DNA from: Paraburkholderia sp. PGU19
GTDB lineage: Bacteria > Pseudomonadota > Gammaproteobacteria > Burkholderiales > Burkholderiaceae
Direction of reading: 5' to 3'
Length of the DNA: 64,000 nt
NCBI RefSeq assembly: GCF_013426915.1
Contig: NZ_AP023183.1
Location: 62,001 to 126,000 of the forward strand
Within the stretch, counting starts at the first letter, position 1. Each line of letters opens with the position of its first letter. Both the position numbers and the translations under genes were made by a program. The notes beneath the pieces are model-generated. The model searched no databases, was not told where the DNA came from, and was given only the letters and a program-made list of their open reading frames with translations. This document shows positions 3,230 to 32,014 of the stretch, piece after piece.

Positions 3230-4729
3230 TCTCACTGTGTCACAAAATCTATTTGCAGTGAAGCGATACCTGGTAGTATTGAATAATACAGACTTCGGGC
3301 GATCGCGATGAGAGAAGATGTCGACGAATTTGACGCGTATCTGAATCATCTGGCGCTGGCGTTAGGGCACGCCGATCGCCATGCCGGCCTCAAGGGTTAC
3401 TGTTCGGGCTTGGTAATGCCGTTGTCACGCAAGAGCGTCGAGCCGATGGCCGCGCATATTGACCCACTTCACGCGAGTGCGAAACACCAGTCACTTCACC
3501 ATTTTGTGGCCAAGGCAGAATGGTCTGACCGGGCGGTCCTGCAGCGGGTACGCGAATGGGTGATGCCCGCGTTAGGCCTGCACGCTGCTGAAGAGGCTGG
3601 CTATTACTGGATTATTGACGATACGGGCTTCCCGAAGAAGGGCAAGCATTCGGTCGGCGTAGCGCGACAATACTGTGGGCAACTGGGCAAACAGGATAAC
3701 TGCCAGATCGCCGTGAGCCTGTCGATCGCGACGCAACGGGGCAGTTTGCCGATTGCCTGGCAATTGTATATCCCCAAGGAATGGATTGACGACCGGGAAC
3801 GTGCCCGTCGCGCTGGCATTCCCGACGAACTAGTTTTCCAGACCAAGCCACAGATTGCGCTGGCCCAGCTTCGCGAGGCCATAGCATCCGGCGTTGCGCC
3901 GGGCATCGTGCTGGCCGACGCTGGGTATGGCGACGAAACCGCATTCCGGGAGGGCATAACTGAACTGGGTTTGTTGTACGCGGTAGGGATCCGGCCGGTC
4001 ACCTCTGTGTGGGCGCCAGGTACGGAGCCGCTTCCACCCAAGCCCTGGAGCGGGCGCGGTCAGCCACCGAAGTTGTTGCGCCGTGCGCCCGGCCATAAAC
4101 CGCTCGCGGTGAAGGAACTGGCCATGCAATTACCCGTGAACGCCTGGCAAACCGTAACCTGGCGGGAAGGTAGCAACGCAGCACTTTCCTCACGCTTTGC
4201 CGCCGTACGGGTTCGTCCCGCACATCACGACTATTGGCGAAGTACGGTTCGCGACGAAGAATGGCTGCTTATTGAATGGCCTGATGGCGATACGGAGCCG
4301 CTCAAATACTTTCTCGCTACTGCCCCGAGGAGGCGACACTTGAGCAGCTTGTGTTCGTGACCAAGATGCGCTGGCGCATCGAGCGCGACTATCAGGACCT
4401 GAAACAGGAGTTCGGGCTCGGTCATTATGAAGGGCGAGGCTGGCGTGGCTTTCACCACCACGCCACATTGAGTATCGCTGCGTATGGGTTTCTGATGGCT
4501 CAGCGACTGCGAATGCAATCAGGTGGACGCGATAAAAAAAACTTCCTTGAACGGGCGCTGCCTGCCCTTCCCTCGGATTACATCCCCCGGGGCAGTCCAG
4601 CGCGCTCAACGCCACGTTCCTGATTCCATTACCACGTTGCGCATCCTGCTTGGACTAAGGCTCATGCAACGATGGCTCGCTCCCTAGTACAGCAATCGAG
4701 CGCGCAATTATTTATATGACACAGTAGTA
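3230..4729 (+). mobile_element. IS701-family element, copy B
   Basis: This copy is 1500 bp, one base shorter than copy A. It has the same inverted ends and CTAG flanks (3226-3229 and 4730-4733), in the same orientation as copy A. The two copies form a direct repeat around the IS5-type element. Confidence 0.88.
3308..4623 (+). pseudogene. IS701-family transposase, frameshifted copy
   Basis: This gene matches the intact copy at 459-1775 up to about residue 338 (YFLATAP). A run of five C in copy A is four C here (4323-4326), which shifts the frame and ends the first open frame at 4360. The remaining 90 residues, including the catalytic Glu block MRWRIERDYQDLKQE, continue in another frame to 4623. 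As written it would make a truncated, inactive protein. The single missing base in a homopolymer may be a true mutation or a sequencing error. Confidence 0.88.
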
Positions 4730-4922: not shown

Positions 4923-5758
4923 GGTTGTGGTGCAATTCCGATGCGTCGGTCTGTTACTCTTGAGCTTTTGACGACCACGCGCCAATGAGCAAGCTGAAAG
5001 ATCTCGAAGGGTTATTCAACGGGCGTCATTTCGACCGCGAAGTTATCGTCCTTTGCGTGCGTTGGTATCTGCGCTACAAGCTCAGTCTGCGCGATCTTGC
5101 CGAGATGATGGTTGAACGCGGCCTGTCCCTCGCCCACACCACGATCCTGCGTTGGGTGAAGCGCTACACGCCGGAGTTCGTCAAACGCTGGAATCGGCTG
5201 GCCACGACAGGCGGTCAGTCATGGCGAGTCGATGAGACTTACGTGAAGATTCGTGGCAAATGGGCCTATCTTTACCGCGCTGTTGACCGGGCAGGAAAGA
5301 CGATCGATTTTCGACTCAGCGCCAGGCGCGATGTGGCGGCCGCAAAGGCGTTCTTCGCGAAGGCGATCAGAACACAGGGGCGCACTCCCGAAGCGATCAC
5401 GCTGGACGGCTATGCGGCATCTCATCGAGCGGTCCGCGAGATGCAGACTGACGGATCTCTACCCAGGCGAACGAAATTGAGATCCTCGAAGTACCTGAAC
5501 AACCTGATCGAACAAGATCACCGTCACATCAAATCGCGGGTGAACGTGATGCTCGGGTTCAAGCGGTTCCGGAACGCGGCCGTTACCCTCTCCGGCATCG
5601 AACTGATGCATCGCATTCGAAAAGGCCAGTTCGCTCTCACCAGAGTGCACCTCAAAGGTACCACTTCGCCCTCGATCTGGATGGCGGTTCTTTCAGCTCG
5701 TTGAGATCCCCGAAAAATCGGCGATTTCTCGCCTGCCTACCCAATTTGCACCACAACC
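4923..5758 (+). mobile_element. IS6-family element, copy 1 (uninterrupted)
   Basis: The 836-bp element has terminal inverted repeats beginning GGTTGTGGTGCAA at both ends (left at 4923, right ending at 5758). It holds one 239-residue transposase. The 8 bp outside each end do not match, so no target duplication is visible, which is common after IS6-type cointegrate events or rearrangement. Confidence 0.88.
4985..5704 (+). CDS. IS6/IS26-family transposase
   Basis: This 239-residue IS6-family DDE transposase has a helix-turn-helix N-terminus ([10 protein letters not shown]...[10 protein letters not shown]) followed by the catalytic motifs [24 protein letters not shown] and [12 protein letters not shown], giving D, D and E in order. 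Length is typical of IS26 relatives. It is the only gene of its element. It is the uninterrupted counterpart of the intron-split gene at 28865-31946, which has the same length when rejoined. Confidence 0.93.
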
Positions 5759-23890: not shown

Positions 23891-24526
23891 ATGGAAGATT
23901 TTCTGGATAATCCGCAGCCTGTCGCGCTTGATCGGCCACGCGGCGCGCATCGGCTCGAAGCTTTCAGTCCGAAGCTCAACCGGCGGCTGACGTTCTATCG
24001 ACGCTGCGCATTCGATCAGTGGATCCTCATCGAAACAGATCCGGGGGTACGGGTATTCTGCGAGCGCCCAGGGTACGTTCAGCTTCGTGGGCAGCGACAG
24101 CTTGCCGACTTCTGGGTCTCTTTCTCGGACCGGCAGGAGTTAATCCTGCTGCCGGCGCCGGTTACCGCGGACGGTCCAACGCGTGACGGCAAATTCAGGG
24201 ATTTCAACTCGATCGATGTCCGGAGCGTCAATCCGGCCGATCTGGCGGCATCGCGCACGTGGATTGACAACTGGAAGCGCATGCTGCCTTGTATCGTCGT
24301 CACCCGTGGCCTCGTGCCCGCATCTCTCCTTGACGCGATTGAGCAGTTCATCTGCAGTCCTCAGTCCTTGCTTTCCATCGAGCGCAAGTTTTCAGCGGGC
24401 GATCCGATTCTCGCACGGGCGGCAGTCTTCGGGCTGCTGTATGCAGGCCGCGTGAGCGCCCCAGAGTTGCGAACCGACGCATTGTCGTCGATGACGCGAT
24501 TCGCTTCTCAGGAGAGTCAGTCATGA
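23891..24526 (+). CDS. tnsA: TnsA-like endonuclease subunit
   Basis: A 211-residue protein with the TnsA N-terminal endonuclease pattern: LTFYRRCAFDQWILIETDPGV, then FCERPGYV and RQLADFWVSF with the conserved Asp. In Tn7-like elements this restriction-enzyme-like subunit cuts the 5' ends, allowing cut-and-paste excision together with TnsB. Its stop overlaps the tnsB start (ATGA), so the two are translationally coupled. A truncated homologue lies at 36420-36800. Orthology is inferred from motif and gene order. Confidence 0.78.
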   Translation: MEDFLDNPQPVALDRPRGAHRLEAFSPKLNRRLTFYRRCAFDQWILIETDPGVRVFCERPGYVQLRGQRQLADFWVSFSDRQELILLPAPVTADGPTRDGKFRDFNSIDVRSVNPADLAASRTWIDNWKRMLPCIVVTRGLVPASLLDAIEQFICSPQSLLSIERKFSAGDPILARAAVFGLLYAGRVSAPELRTDALSSMTRFASQESQS

Positions 24527-26514
24527 GCCGTCGCAAACCCGAACTGCAGGCGCTCGATCTCGCGTCGTGGCCCGCCGTCGCATGGACAGATTTCGACGCG
24601 AAGGCACGTAAGGTTATCAAGATGCGAATGCAGGCGATCGAGCGCTTCGCGCGGGGTGAACCGGTCAAGGGCATTGAGCAGTCGACTGGCGTGAACAGGC
24701 GGCAGCTCTATCGATTGCTGGAACGTGGACTGTCACTTCACCCTGATGGACGGATTTACGGGTTCCGCGGGCTGCAGAGTTACGTGAGAGTCACGGAATA
24801 CGCGCGGCTGGGCCAGATCACTGTGAGGGGAGAGCGGGGCAGTCGCGGTACGGCAGGCGCTTTCTCCCAACTTCTCGAACGCTACCCGTCACTTTCAGTA
24901 TGGCTACGTTCGCAGCTCAAGCGGCGTCGTGTCACGCTCGAGCAGATCCATACCGAAGGCCGGCTGCATACGAGATTGAGCGGTTTGCAACCGCTGCACG
25001 TCGAGTTTCTGTGGCAGTGCCGCTCCGCGGGGCTAACGGTTGGAGACTACCCTTTCAATACCCGCGGGCGGGCGATCCGTTCACTGGCAGCGCATCTGAA
25101 GGCGGAAATGCTGCGCAACTTCGCCACAGGCGCGCGGGCGGCAGGAGCTTCGCACCTGAAAGGGATACCACGCCACGAGGACGATTTTGCCAGTCCACCA
25201 GCAACGCGGCCTTACCAGGTCGTGGAGTTTGATGGGCACCGGCTCGATATCCGGCTCAAGGTAGTAGTGCGTGATCAACTGGGCTTCGAGCACGAGTTCG
25301 AGATTGAGCGCGTCTGGCTACTCGCGATCATTGACGTCAGCACCCGGGCGGTGCTCGGCTATCACATTGCGCTGGGACGCGAATACAGCCGCTATGACGT
25401 CATCAAGACAATCGAGAACGCACTGGAACCGCATCGACCACGAACCTTCACGATTCCAGGCTTAACCTACGGACCACGTGACGGATTCCCATCGCAACGG
25501 TTGCCGGAACTCGCGTACGTCACGTGGGAGTGGATGAAGCTTGACAACGCGAAGGCGAACCTGGCAAACGAGTCACGGGCTGCATTGTGCGAATTCGTCG
25601 GTTGCTGTGTTGATGCCGGGCCGAAGTACAGTCCAGATGAGCGACCCTATATCGAACGCTTTTTTGGCACCATAGCCGGCAGGCTGTCGTCCAGGTTGCC
25701 GGGTTACACGGGTTCGCATCCGCGTGACTTGCGCCGTGCTCTGGCGGATCCAAAGGGCAACCTGCGCCTGTACGTATCACTCGACGAGCTGGAGGAGCTG
25801 ATTGAGTACGCGATCGCGAGCTACCATGGCACGCCACACGCCGGGCTGAACAATGTCACGCCATTGGAGGCGATGGAATATTTCGTTCGCGGCAGTCAGC
25901 AACTGCTCACGTGGCTTCCCGAACATCACCGGCGTTCCCTCTGCCTGATGCAATCGGCAATTCATTGCCAGGTACGCGCCTACCTCGGCAAAGGTGTCCG
26001 GCCACATATCAATCTGCACGGCGCTCGATATACGAGCGCCGTGCTTGCGTGCAGCACACAGTTCATCGGCAAGCGATTGCTGGTCTATATGAACGCGGAC
26101 GATATGCGTAGCGTGCGCGCATTCCTGCCGGATGGTACCGAACTGGGCGTTCTCGATGTTCAAGGCGCGTGGCGCCTGATACCACACACTCTCAAACTGC
26201 GGCAGGAAATCCTCAAGGAGAAGGGTAACCGACGTTCGCCGACATCGGTCGAGGCAAATCCGATCGAAGAGTACGTTCAAGGCAAACTGGCCAGGGCGAA
26301 GAAGACACGCAGGGCGGCCTCGGACCTGTCGCAGGCGATGCGCGTTATGTCAGCTGCGTCGTCAGCACGCCCGCCCGTAGGCCCTCCGACCGCCGTAACA
26401 GTTGCTGCGCTTACGGCGGTAGGGCCGTCGGAGCCAGAGACCGAAGGAGTAGCAGCACCGCGGGGCCCAACGCGTCCCCGAAAGCTCACCATTGGCACCG
26501 GCCAGGTCTTTTAA
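24523..26514 (+). CDS. tnsB: TnsB/TniA-like DDE transposase
   Basis: A 663-residue Mu/TnsB-type integrase-fold transposase. The N-terminal third has helix-turn-helix segments (VKGIEQSTGVNRRQLYRLL). The catalytic core has Asp in VVEFDGHRLD (about 237), Asp in MKLDNAKAN (about 341) and Glu in PYIERFFGT (about 378). A Mu-transposase C-terminal beta-barrel follows (ARYTSAVL...RVYMNADD-like region), then a charged tail. It overlaps tnsA by 4 bp and precedes tnsC. Size and layout match functional family members. Confidence 0.9.
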   Translation: MSRRKPELQALDLASWPAVAWTDFDAKARKVIKMRMQAIERFARGEPVKGIEQSTGVNRRQLYRLLERGLSLHPDGRIYGFRGLQSYVRVTEYARLGQITVRGERGSRGTAGAFSQLLERYPSLSVWLRSQLKRRRVTLEQIHTEGRLHTRLSGLQPLHVEFLWQCRSAGLTVGDYPFNTRGRAIRSLAAHLKAEMLRNFATGARAAGASHLKGIPRHEDDFASPPATRPYQVVEFDGHRLDIRLKVVVRDQLGFEHEFEIERVWLLAIIDVSTRAVLGYHIALGREYSRYDVIKTIENALEPHRPRTFTIPGLTYGPRDGFPSQRLPELAYVTWEWMKLDNAKANLANESRAALCEFVGCCVDAGPKYSPDERPYIERFFGTIAGRLSSRLPGYTGSHPRDLRRALADPKGNLRLYVSLDELEELIEYAIASYHGTPHAGLNNVTPLEAMEYFVRGSQQLLTWLPEHHRRSLCLMQSAIHCQVRAYLGKGVRPHINLHGARYTSAVLACSTQFIGKRLLVYMNADDMRSVRAFLPDGTELGVLDVQGAWRLIPHTLKLRQEILKEKGNRRSPTSVEANPIEEYVQGKLARAKKTRRAASDLSQAMRVMSAASSARPPVGPPTAVTVAALTAVGPSEPETEGVAAPRGPTRPRKLTIGTGQVF

Positions 26515-26536
26515 TCTGACGTTTGTGGGAGGCAAC

Positions 26537-27517
26537 ATGTCGCTTGAGATACCTCGTCCGATCGATCCATCGCTACACCCGCTCGTGACAGGCAACTACC
26601 GCATTGCCACACCGGCTATCGAGTCTTTTTATGAACTGGTAGTTCGATGTCTGCATTACCGGATTATGGGCGCGCTTATCTATGGGCCGTCACGCATCGG
26701 CAAGACCCGTGCAATTGAATATGTCCGGCTGCTGCTGGCGCGCAACTATCCGCGGATGACGAGTTACCACGCGCAGTGCGAGCACAAGCCGCGTCATGCC
26801 GAGGGGCCGTTCTTCGCAAATCTGCTTGAGGCGGTCGGTGACCCGGATCCGAACGCTGGCTCCAATCCTTCAAAGCGGATGCGCCTGACGCTGAGAATCC
26901 GTCAGGCGGCATCCTGTTCGGGCAGTGGGATGGTGCTGCTCTTTTGCGACGAGGCCCAACGATACAACGACAATGAATATGAATGGCTGCGTGATGTTCA
27001 TGACGCGCTGGACCGCCAGCAAATCAAACTGTTCACCTTTCTTGTCGGTCAACAGGAGCTGGTCGCGCAGAAGACCGCGATGCAGGTTGCGGGCAAGACG
27101 CAGATCGTCGCGCGTCTCATGGTCGAGGAGCTGTCATTTTATGGCATACGCAATGCACATGACGTCGCGACATGCCTGAACGGCTACGATCAGACCGCCT
27201 ATCCGGAAGGAACTGGATGGAGCTTTACACGCTTCTACGTTCCGCAGGCGTTTGACGCTGGATATCGACTCGTCAACGACGCAGACGTGCTGTGGAATGC
27301 GTTCGAGAAGGCGCACCACAAGGCCAGTCTTCCAGGGCAACTGGAGATCCCGATGGAGTCGTTTGCGCGCGCCGTCGAGATCGTCCTCAAGGATAGTGAA
27401 CTACAGGACGCGCGAGGCTATCGCCCCGATCAGGTCCTGTGGGAACACGCGGTACGGCACTGCGGTTATGTACAGTCTCGCCATGCAACCGGACGCGTCC
27501 TCGTCACCGCGGCGTAG
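26537..27517 (+). CDS. tnsC: TnsC/TniB-like AAA+ ATPase
   Basis: A 326-residue ATPase with Walker A GPSRIGKT (50-57) and Walker B VLLFCDEA (about 133-140), typical of the TniB/TnsC regulators that form target-bound filaments and link target choice to TnsB. ATG 26537 has GGGAGG upstream; the longer open frame overlaps the tnsB tail and is unlikely. Its end overlaps the tniQ start. Confidence 0.88.
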   Translation: MSLEIPRPIDPSLHPLVTGNYRIATPAIESFYELVVRCLHYRIMGALIYGPSRIGKTRAIEYVRLLLARNYPRMTSYHAQCEHKPRHAEGPFFANLLEAVGDPDPNAGSNPSKRMRLTLRIRQAASCSGSGMVLLFCDEAQRYNDNEYEWLRDVHDALDRQQIKLFTFLVGQQELVAQKTAMQVAGKTQIVARLMVEELSFYGIRNAHDVATCLNGYDQTAYPEGTGWSFTRFYVPQAFDAGYRLVNDADVLWNAFEKAHHKASLPGQLEIPMESFARAVEIVLKDSELQDARGYRPDQVLWEHAVRHCGYVQSRHATGRVLVTAA

Positions 27518-28810: not shown

Positions 28811-28864
28811 GGTTCTGGTGCAAATAGGTAAGCCGGTTGAGACACTTCATATAGGCAGGATACC

Positions 28865-29056
28865 TTATCGATTGGACAGAACAGACTTCCATACGGCGGG
28901 CGCAGCGGCATCCTTGAGGCCGAGCTTCGCGAGGTCGAACTGGCCTTTGCGAATTCGATGCGTCAGTTCGATGCCTGAAATCGTGGTCGCGGCGCCCCTG
29001 AACCGTTTGAAACCGAGCATCACATTCGTTCTGGATTTGATGTGGCGATGGTCCTG
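28865..29056 (-). CDS. IS6-family transposase, exon 2
   Basis: These 63 codons plus stop begin [20 protein letters not shown] and end KSVLSNR, matching the C-terminal quarter of copy 1 ([20 protein letters not shown]). The frame is in phase with exon 1 only after exact removal of 29057-31418. It has no start of its own. Confidence 0.92.
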   Translation of the reverse strand, partial: QDHRHIKSRTNVMLGFKRFRGAATTISGIELTHRIRKGQFDLAKLGLKDAAAPAVWKSVLSNR

Positions 29057-29096
29057 GTCGGGTAGCCGTACCGCATTGCTGCGATACGGCCCCCTA

Positions 29097-29131
29097 AGAA
29101 CCGTACGTGCGCCTTTAGGAGCATACGGCTC
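29097..29131 (-). ncRNA. Group II intron domain V
   Basis: The minus-strand hairpin runs from GAGCCGTATGC to GTACGGTTCT, the near-invariant catalytic core of bacterial group II introns. It lies about 40 bp from the 3' splice site and just after the maturase stop, as expected. Confidence 0.88.
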
Positions 29132-29188
29132 AAGCCTCTACAAAGGCATCTGTCGACACCCGGTGGTGAAACTGCTTTTTCAGGCGTA

Positions 29189-30825
29189 TTACGGATTTCT
29201 ACGGCAACTGAGATGGTGCACTTGAAGGTTGCTTGCTGCATCCGTCCCGCCGTCGGTTCGCTTCACAATATGCGTGACATCCCAGCGGGTGTCCATTGTG
29301 ATGGGCTGCCGACAGTTGGAACACATGCCATCTTGCCTTAGCCATACACGGTACAGCTTACGGCGACCTCGCGCTGAGTTCAGCATCTTCTGGCCCCATC
29401 GGGATTCGAAGTACCGCGCCCATTGCGGATCGTGCGGATTGGCGCCCGCCTTGATCTTGACATGCCGTTTTATTGGCGTGTCCGATACCTTCAGCAAGGT
29501 GACCGCTCTTGTCGTGCCATCCTCTTCTTTTTCTGTGGCGGCAAATACCCAGTCCCGGAGACCCTTGGCCTTGAAGTATTTGATTTTTATCCATCGGGCG
29601 CCTTTGTTGGGGTGCCGTCTTGCCGCCCATCGCCATAGCATTGACCAGACCTCGTGATCAACCCGATTGAAGGCTTTCTTGGCGACTGCATGGCTGTGGT
29701 AATTCGCCCATCCTCGCAAAACAGGATTGAGCAGCCTTATCAGGTTCGCCTGTTTAGCCGTCTTGTTGGCCTTGATGATTTCACGGACTTTGTCAAGATG
29801 TGCATTGACGTTCGCTTTCGACGGTTTCATCAAGTGCTTGCCGTTGTACTTGCGAATGTTCCATCCGAGGAAATCAAACCCGTCCTTGATGTGCGTTATC
29901 CTGGTCTTTTCTGGCGACAAGACCAGCCCGCGTTCCGCCAGAAATTCAGTTACTGCCGGCCTGACCTCATGTTCCAGCCACTCTTTCGAATGGCCGGTGA
30001 TAATGAAATCGTCCGCGTAACGCACCATGTTCACTTTCAGTCCTCTCTGCCGGGCTCGCGGGAATCTCTCCGCGAGCATCGCTTCGAGGCCATCAAGCGT
30101 CATGTTGGCTGCCACCGGTGAGATGATTCCCCTTGCGGGGTGCCGGCGTCAGTGGGGAAGAGTTCGTTTTGATACACGTAGCCCGCTTTGAGCCACTTCT
30201 TGAGGATCACCTTGTCCGTAGGGATGTTGGCGATCATCCAGTCGTGGGAAATTTTGTCGAAACAGCCTTGGATGTCGGCCTCTAGCACCCATTCCGCACT
30301 CGCCTTTTTCGCCAGGGAGATGAAGCATTGTCCTCCCGCGTCAGCAGTTGAGCGTTCCGGCCTGAACCCGTAAGAGTTCGGGTCGGCAGTGGTTTCCGCA
30401 ACCGGCTCCAGAGCAAGCAGATGCAACGCTTGCATCGCCCTGCAGCGCATCACGGGTATGCCGAGCGGCCTCGTCTTGCCGTTTTTCTTCGGAATCAACA
30501 CTCTCCGAAGCGGAAGGGGCGAGTAGCCCCGCCTCTTCAACGACGCAATCGCGTTGGCCTTTGCCGCCGGTGTTTTCCACGTTACCTTGTCCACACCGGG
30601 GGTGTTCCTGCCTTTGTTTTCAGTCACCCGCCTGACGGCTAATGCACGGCCGCTGAACGAGTGGGTCAGCAGCCATTGCAGGGCTCTCACCCTGTTATGG
30701 CGACCGGCCTGTACCGCCTTCACCATACGCGACTGCAGCCTACTTACCTGACGTTGAACATCGGCCCAATTGATGCCGTCCCACGTCACGCCAGAAGGTG
30801 CACGCGCCCGTGTTGCTGCACTCAT
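29189..30825 (-). pseudogene. ltrA: Group II intron reverse transcriptase/maturase, frameshifted
   Basis: The N-terminal frame (start 30825, AAGGA upstream) has RT blocks including RVLIPKKNGKTRPLGIP, SYGFRPERS and VLEADIQGCFDKISH, and reaches GTPQG. The next frame (from about 30115) continues with VAANMTLDG, the catalytic YADD in NMVRYADDFIITG, the maturase thumb and a C-terminal HNH (CSNC...HIVKRTDGGTD...HHLSC). The switch lies in a four-C run at 30129-30132; a fifth C would restore GTPQGGIISP. As written, the RT is broken, so splicing would need a maturase in trans. Confidence 0.9.
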
Positions 30826-31418
30826 TTGCTTTCCTTCCGTATAGATGGTTCTGCAAACTCTCTGGTGAGGAGAGACCACGAGGAAGTCTGCCCGCTTTCG
30901 CGTCGGGTGATGTTGCAACCCGTATCCCGTCCATTACAGCCGGGCTTTCGCTTTTTCCCCGATCCTGTGCCCGCACCGCCATGGGCAGACTTCGCAGCCT
31001 GCTGTCCCCGAAGGGAGCGATACGGGGTTTCCACGTTCCGCTTATGGAAGTACGCCGGGTTAGGTGCCTGCTCTGGGCCGGAAGGTATATGGGTCACGAA
31101 CGCGTAATCGAGAAACGCTGTTCCCACCTCCAGTACCGTTTTGGTTCGAGCGTATTAGCCATTTCCGCTCGTTCAACATAACGACCCTATTGCAGATTCA
31201 AATGTTTTCACCATACCGACTATCTGGCACTCATCCGGCTTATGGCTGCCAGAAGGGTACGCCTCTCGCGATTGATACCCCGCGCCTTGCGGCGCTTCGT
31301 TACGTTGTCAGAGCCGCTCTTGATTCAGGCTCCTAGATTCACCGGGTGACACCAGTGGTTCACTCCTTCTATACGGCGAGAAGGGCGAACAACTTCTGTA
31401 AGCGACTTCGTGTCGCAC

Positions 31419-31946
31419 CTCGATCACGTTGTTCAGATATTTCGACGACCGGACCTTCGTGTCTTCAGGCAGCAGACCATCGGTCTTCATCTCGCGCACC
31501 GCGCGGTGCGAGGCAGCATAGCCGTCGAGCGTGATGGTCTCCGGCGGCTGGCCCTGATGCGTGATGGCCTTGCTGAAGAATGCTTTGGCGGCGGCCACGT
31601 CGCGCCTCGCCCTGAGAATGAAGTCCACCGTCTGGCCAGTCCGATCCACTGCACGGTACAGGTAGACCCACCTGCCACGAATCTTCAGATAGGTCTCGTC
31701 GACGCGCCACGAACGACCCGCGGGTGTAGCAAAGCGATTCCAGCGTTTGACGAACTCAGGCGTATAACGTTTCACCCAGCGCAGAATCGTCGTGTGAGCC
31801 AGCGACAAACCCCGTTCGGCCATCATCTCGACCAGATCGCGCAGGCTGAGCTTGTAGCGCAGGTACCAGCGAACACACAGAATGATCACATCGCGGTCAA
31901 AATGACGGCCCGCGAACAGTTCCTCCAGACTCTTCAGCTTGCTCAT
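31419..31946 (-). CDS. IS6-family transposase, exon 1
   Basis: The first 176 codons of an IS6/IS26-type transposase have the HTH region, [12 protein letters not shown] and [12 protein letters not shown], and end exactly at KYLNNVIE, whose Glu is the third catalytic residue. The group II intron begins with the next base. Exon 2 at 28865-29056 continues QDHRHIKSR. Joined, the 720-bp gene encodes 239 residues, the same length as copy 1 at 4985-5704. Without splicing, translation reads into the intron and the protein is truncated (stop near 31308). Confidence 0.92.
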
Positions 31947-32014
31947 CGGCGGTTCTCAATTCGTTCAGACCGACACCTTAACCGATTCGCCCCCGCGCTA
32001 TTTGCACCAGAGCC

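Follow-up and report, generated by a model that had tools for sequence, protein, structure and literature searches.

We examined a window of 64,000 nucleotides (nt) from Paraburkholderia sp. PGU19 (contig NZ_AP023183.1, positions 62,001 to 126,000), in which an insertion sequence (IS) of the IS6 type holds a group II intron within its transposase gene. Coordinates below count from the first base of the window unless another contig or locus is named. The element occupies 28811..32014 on the minus strand and measures 842 bp without the intron. Its 17-bp terminal inverted repeats, read from the sequence at 28811..28827 (left) and 31998..32014 (right), match by eye at 16 of 17 bp, and these short repeats, together with a transposase exon matching PF13610 (DDE_Tnp_IS240), identify it as a member of the IS6 family. 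The sequences flanking the element differ, with no 8-bp direct repeat that would mark a target duplication; in IS6 elements such duplications are often absent after cointegration.

The intron spans 29057..31418 on the minus strand (2362 nt, GTGCG...CCCGAC). The sequence-only reading of this DNA had proposed a group II intron with precisely these ends, and covariance models from Rfam now back both of them. Domains V and VI match RF00029 at 29057..29133 (minus strand, 52.2 bits), and the match ends exactly at 29057; the fold places a bulged A at 29063, 7 nt from the 3' end, and its minimum free energy has a z-score of -6.6. Toward the other end, a domain I block matches RF02012 (group-II-D1D4-7) at 31227..31358 (minus strand, 76.9 bits). 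The GUGYG 5' end and the GAC 3' end, which has the expected terminal AY, complete the features of a mobile, IIB-like group II intron. IStrons likewise combine an intron ribozyme with an IS (PMC4227781). In IStrons the ribozyme is a group I intron; all Rfam matches within our window are to group II.

The two transposase exons flank the intron exactly. The 5' exon (31419..31946, minus strand) is open over 176 codons and ends in KYLNNVIE; an open reading frame at 31308-31946 that includes it matches PF13610 with E=1.2e-34. The 3' exon (28865..29056, minus strand) begins QDHRHIKSR and is open over 63 codons plus a stop. Reading the two separately and summing their lengths gives a spliced product of 239 residues, which, as had been claimed, equals the length of the uninterrupted copy at 4985-5704. 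The splice site thus falls directly after the Glu codon of NNVIE; we take the Glu of NNxxE to be the catalytic Glu of IS6 and IS66 transposases. Besides the exons, a natural empty site in the same genome (contig C5, 343609-344446) confirms this placement: an intronless paralogue there matches the two exons at 97.8% and 95.9% identity, and lacks a single full-length open frame. We conclude that the intron described in the sequence-only reading is real and lies within an IS6 transposase gene.

Relatives of the intron occupy the same codon in other genes. We scanned 84,980 species genomes for exact matches to a 31-base pattern from the intron's 5' end, which is blind to the target, and found 70 loci; these are not 70 independent events, since several are contig ends or share a genome. 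In 45 of the 70 the intron follows the Glu codon. Typing by the codons directly upstream assigned 36 of these to IS66-type genes ([D/N/C]NNxxE) and seven to IS6-type genes (KYxNNxxE); the other two, L032, which has an assembly gap, and L046, in a frameshifted gene, were also counted as Glu-codon sites. The remaining loci lie at other sites (24/70) or have no upstream sequence (1/70). Across all classed loci, with the plasmid loci and the window included, NNxxE takes fourteen different forms. In L011 the two exons match the IS66 profile PF03050 at positions 137-260 and 261-283; the splice site therefore lies between neighbouring positions, which makes Glu the last residue before the intron. Within the host's own family, 8 of 398 genomes carry the 5'-end pattern with at most two mismatches. 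They yield ten loci, three of them at other sites and one without upstream sequence; the six at the IS6 Glu codon comprise three already among the 70, the window itself, L097 and L102. Other IS6 genes with an intron at this position, for which the sequence-only reading had suggested a search, thus include the seven among the 70 together with L097 and L102. A single assembly of P. panacisoli has the intron 5' end in three IS6-type loci. Among viral contigs, no locus was confirmed from the search with the maturase, and none matched the 5'-end pattern. These results indicate that the Glu-codon site is not special to the gene in the window: the lineage uses it in IS66-type genes too, a point missed when the intron was first noticed.

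Several loci from these searches have features of their own. In P. silvatlantica, a 149-nt remnant (L031:1778-1926) at the same IS6 site consists of the intron's 5' start fused to its 3' end through an internal deletion. A sublineage from beta-proteobacterial metagenome-assembled genomes (L035, L067, L069, L075 and L082) sits after a common DNA string near ATAGGAAAATCAA and has a TAG three codons ahead of the splice site, and four loci of one metagenome-assembled genome (L070, L071, L078 and L090) share the upstream string CGGCCTTATGTGG. Plasmid pSBC2-3 of Caballeronia sp. SBC2 (L010) carries two related copies that are inverted relative to each other, lie some 1.2 kb apart and share one annotated maturase protein accession. 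An intron on an A. johnsonii plasmid (L023:1801) closely resembles the Acinetobacter introns of IS66-type genes, yet lies outside IS66; its site ends TGGTCGAA, matching its exon-binding site 1, and looks like an ectopic retrotransposition.

The intron is complementary to the codons of the motif itself. On the minus strand of the window, exon-binding site (EBS) 2 at 31174..31178 (intron nt 241-245; TGTTG) pairs with intron-binding site (IBS) 2 at 31427..31431 (CAACG, inside the two Asn codons). EBS1 at 31105..31112 (nt 307-314; CTCGATTA) forms eight pairs, one of them G-U, with IBS1 at 31419..31426 (TGATCGAG, across the x-x-Glu codons), and EBS3 (31073..31073, nt 346) pairs with base +1 of the 3' exon. 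The EBS/IBS check named in the sequence-only reading was thus borne out, and it extends to the relatives. We compared 27 of the 28 full-length introns (L032 was left out for its assembly gap), setting nt 307-314 against the bases before the splice site, nt 241-245 against -13 to -9 and nt 346 against +1. With 2000 partner shuffles for each null, uncontrolled for relatedness, EBS1 and IBS1 formed 126 of 162 possible Watson-Crick pairs over six positions, -6 to -1 (shuffle mean 90, maximum 112), and EBS2 and IBS2 formed 114 of 135 (mean 82, maximum 101). EBS3 was complementary to +1 in 26 of the 27, including all five introns with a +1 base other than A. Introns at other targets carry correspondingly different sequences: L082, with target ATAGG + AAATCAA, has EBS2 CCTAT and EBS1 TTTGATT, and L095, with target ATAACCC, has EBS1 GGGTTAT.

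The closest comparison involves L042, from another Paraburkholderia, whose intron is 98% identical to that of the window. The two differ at 58 positions, of which two lie inside the 8-nt EBS1, and the 3' exons of their IS6 genes are 61% identical over 120 nt, ungapped. Both EBS1 differences correspond to differences in the target, giving two Watson-Crick pairs in the window and one Watson-Crick plus one G-U pair in L042. A different candidate for EBS2, GUUGUU at nt 26-31, scored highest against AACAAC codons and was rejected: it is nearly constant in introns with other targets and mostly fixed by the search pattern, whereas nt 241-245 varies with the target.

Targeting of active-site codons by this lineage, across two transposase families, is well supported by these sequence comparisons, and we consider it likely that a mobile, group IIB-like lineage homes to the DNA of the last catalytic motif of DDE transposases. 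The Asn-Asn codons would be recognised by EBS2, the x-x-Glu codons by EBS1 and the base that follows them by EBS3. Together these three pairings would direct reverse splicing to a phase-0 position immediately behind the Glu codon, in whichever transposase family has the motif, and no transposase would be produced unless the intron is spliced out. Through small changes in EBS1 and EBS2, the lineage could follow codon changes and use both IS66-type and IS6-type genes. The copy in the window probably arrived by retrohoming from another IS6 gene.

Passive carriage would offer another route, the intron having spread by transposition of, or recombination between, IS6 copies. IS6 elements recombine readily, and the element in the window lacks flanking target duplications. 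We nevertheless regard this route as improbable, given the 98% identical introns in IS6 genes with very different exons, the two EBS1 changes that track target changes and the near-identical intronless exons in the host's own genome. A more serious competitor, which we rank below homing to the motif and hold only tentatively, is historical accident: one intron entered one IS gene, common descent and spread from IS to IS did the rest, and the catalytic residue matters only through its slow-changing codons. Our intron tree comprises 36 of 79 rows, 16 odd or rearranged rows and 27 under 1400 nt having been dropped. All 25 IS66-type introns fall with one ectopic insertion in a single 26-row clade (99/94), and the four IS6-type introns form another group (88/90; 93% of bootstrap trees), which speaks for accident; earlier homing sites such as that of E.c.I4 are, moreover, described simply as specific positions (PMC3522654). 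Against accident, IS66 and IS6 transposases match different Pfam families, although the IS6 exon of L042 weakly matches IS66 (E=2.4e-5); between the two clades the tree places introns with other targets, though not in a settled branching order; and other intron lineages, described below, also occur at catalytic codons of other IS families.

Homing to the motif has its own difficulties. The lineage is not confined to NNxxE, as 24 of the 70 loci lie elsewhere, several at common sites such as ATAGGAAAATCAA or CGGCCTTATGTGG. The EBS columns were picked by fit on the same introns that were then scored, EBS3 being the best column, with the next best fitting 25 of 27; the shuffles ignore relatedness; and L042 is additionally mismatched at -7. 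Two of the four IS6-type rows sit on long, uncertain branches, and the tree is compatible with either one origin or two for Glu-codon targeting in IS6 and IS66. The frame change in the window's maturase, to which we now turn, could be an assembly error.

Within the intron, the N-terminal part of the maturase (30100..30918, minus strand) contains RVT_N and the first part of RVT_1, and the C-terminal part (29189..30115, minus strand) contains the rest of RVT_1, GIIM and HNH. The description of an HNH-type maturase therefore holds for the domains, all of which are present. It gave too little weight to the frameshift: the gene is split over two frames, broken in the reverse transcriptase (RT) domain, and splicing of this copy is doubtful because of it. 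Among the 28 full-length introns, 22 have a frame open over at least 558 codons and six, including the window copy, are broken; the maturase frame of L042 is open. The host genome (11.2 Mb, 5 contigs) yielded one full-length copy of the window intron, and none of its four further group II intron matches is a full-length match to it. As the maturase is frameshifted and the genome yielded only this one full-length copy, the window copy probably does not splice unaided, and it is probably now splicing-poor or dead. Production of the transposase, and with it transposition, would depend on splicing, so that the transposase probably shares this fate. We judge the window copy to be genuine but probably decayed; IS-resident group II introns are a known kind of element. 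If the frameshift were an assembly error, the copy would be intact, splicing and mobile; the apparently single frame change in an otherwise well-kept reading frame and the open frames of the 22 other introns would fit this. We think it unlikely, given that five other full-length introns are likewise broken, that the assembly comprises 5 contigs with 99.97% completeness, albeit 4.65% contamination, and that disrupted intron reading frames are reported for some E. coli copies (PMC3522654).

Wider samples, drawn with RF00029, address group II introns at large. Throughout, we asked whether the splice site lay within 4 codons of a catalytic Asp or Glu codon; for every sampled transposase family the catalytic residues are presumed ones. 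The first sample covered 299 Pseudomonadota genomes, of which 69 matched, and among the matches listed 98 places were read on the 3' side. The second, for which the 4-codon limit was written down beforehand, took 60 new places from 369 genomes of the host's own class, of which 93 matched. We applied Pfam to open 3'-exon frames of at least 55 codons (50 of 59 in the first sample, 20 of 31 in the second). Insertions near gene ends can be missed, as 3' exons below this length were left out. In the first sample Pfam placed eight insertions in DDE/rve transposases, among the matches listed, and we place six of them within 4 codons: L157, L168, L179 and L245 at the first Asp, and L159 and L160 just before the IS3 Glu. 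The second sample also gave six of eight, all at the first Asp of rve/IS3 types (L248, L259, L260, L261, L277 and L279). Both exons were read for L159, L179, L245 and L260; the other eight fits were placed from the 3' exon by profile or motif, L157, L168, L277 and L279 being the least sure. Two places were not counted as lying in transposases, L203 (Transposase_31, with a match starting 59 residues after the splice site) and L222 (IS3-like by eye, with no Pfam match).

A catalytic codon in every case can be rejected. Beyond 4 codons lie L170 (IS66, about 15 codons after the Glu) and L242 (weakly IS5-like) in the first sample, and L288 (IS5-like, 10 codons before HIGVD) and L302 (IS5-like, N-terminal) in the second. 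Outside the samples, two more loci fail to fit: in L025 (P. phymatum IS66) the splice site precedes the Asp of HGDET by 19 codons, and in L247 (E. coli ISEc1) it follows the Glu by 9 codons. L306, in an IS110 gene and beginning QLCVVH, was excluded from the comparison; we take IS110 not to be a DDE enzyme and the splice site of L306 to lie about 7 codons after its Asp. When 27 of about 300 codons are counted as near (p=0.09, at an assumed gene length), the binomial probability of six of eight is 1.3e-5. Collapsing the fits to five site types against four misses gives 5e-4, or 6e-3 at p=0.15; the sampled places are mutually related, and these figures are guides only.

Previously known introns fit this pattern in part, among them RmInt1 on pSymA, described below. 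A second intron on pSymA, in a Mutator/IS256-type gene, follows the Asp codon of YVWID at a distance of 1 nt, provided that its 3' end is shifted by 2 nt from where Rfam sets it. L179 and L245 of the first sample, with 5' ends that share 14 nt with RmInt1, occupy the D-D-T codons of IS66, the first Asp motif. The wider catalytic-codon rule is suggestive. That transposon-resident bacterial group II introns generally home to transposase catalytic codons, independent classes having tuned their EBS to different DDE members (the Glu of IS66 and IS6; the first Asp of IS630, IS66, IS256/Mutator and rve/IS3; a position beside the IS3 Glu), seems to us evenly balanced between true and false. If the general rule is true, introns could jump between unrelated IS families, at a site that the host IS can hardly change, and this would overturn the published conclusion that group II introns show no regard for conserved sites.

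At two loci (L167:87-605 and L197:2936-3148), the 3' exon of a group II intron is the maturase/RT of a different group II intron. These 3' exons start VICC... and FMLGVIG..., presumably just after the YADD motif; the nested introns may thus lie at the RT catalytic motif. The 3' flank of L153 opens with an apparent second intron 5' end (gtgcgacct), an arrangement of tandem introns.

Introns within IS transposases are known, and the sequence-only reading overstated the case in calling such an arrangement, with transposition dependent on splicing, uncommon. In Sinorhizobium meliloti, RmInt1 likewise lies inside an IS transposase, that of ISRm2011-2 (IS630-Tc1 family); transposition of the IS depends on splicing and is inefficient, and the need to splice is argued to limit it (PMC4238363). 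In the RmInt1 copy on pSymA (L113), the splice site is 4 nt downstream of the Asp codon of FIDE, a codon included in the published IBS1, GAUGAGA. RmInt1 targets the first Asp of IS630, whereas the window lineage targets the Glu. It is a class D intron with a different 5' end (GTGTGCTGCAGAGG, against GTGCGACACG in the window), and PMC8914252 describes it as lacking an endonuclease domain, in contrast to the window maturase with its HNH; the window intron is thus not of the RmInt1/bacterial class D type, with its endonuclease-free maturase and RmInt1-like RNA. IS679 belongs to the IS66 family. In Escherichia coli, E.c.I3 in IS679 and E.c.I4 in IS3 elements likewise occupy fixed positions in IS transposases, and the available text of PMC3522654 makes no statement on catalytic codons. 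Among solved structures only, the best match to the L042 protein is PDB 6me0 (E=5e-196 over 533 residues), presumably the maturase of a T.el4h-type intron. Introns of that type are thermophilic and cyanobacterial and have other target sites.

The presence of an intron in an IS is therefore not new; the choice of active-site codons as target would be. Our literature search, which covered titles and abstract openings and reached subscription journals thinly, found none among the matches listed that states transposase catalytic-codon targeting by group II introns, which hints weakly at novelty. Inteins and group I introns are also selfish elements in conserved, often functional codons, and often use homing endonucleases. 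For group II introns, a 2009 study detected no such bias toward conserved sites (combined p = 0.49; PMC2814812); its available text names mitochondrial or plastid genes as hosts, and the paper nowhere uses the word "transposase". That negative result becomes testable again.

More broadly, the targeting proposed here would allow an RNA parasite to keep up with a mobile host: it would pair with codons whose change would cost the transposase its catalysis, so that a single intron lineage could reach IS copies in several genera and IS families unrelated to one another. On a simple reading, introns persist where the target cannot change, an argument already published for inteins and group I introns (PMC2814812). 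Catalytic codons would be the least changeable part of a transposase, similar DNA encodes them in IS families that are otherwise unrelated, and the multiplying IS copies would guarantee fresh sites. The EBS and target pairs amount to natural retargeting data.

Other mobile-element genes share the window. Just upstream of the IS6 element, a 663-aa protein (24523-26514, plus strand) has a weak rve_3 match below the Pfam cut-off, and its gene overlaps that of an AAA_22 ATPase (26492-27517, plus strand); we take the pair to resemble a TniA/TniB-type transposon. Near the start of the window, two transposases with the same DDE_5 match (459-1775 and 3308-4360, both plus strand) lie within one 4-kb stretch, with several other IS genes around them.

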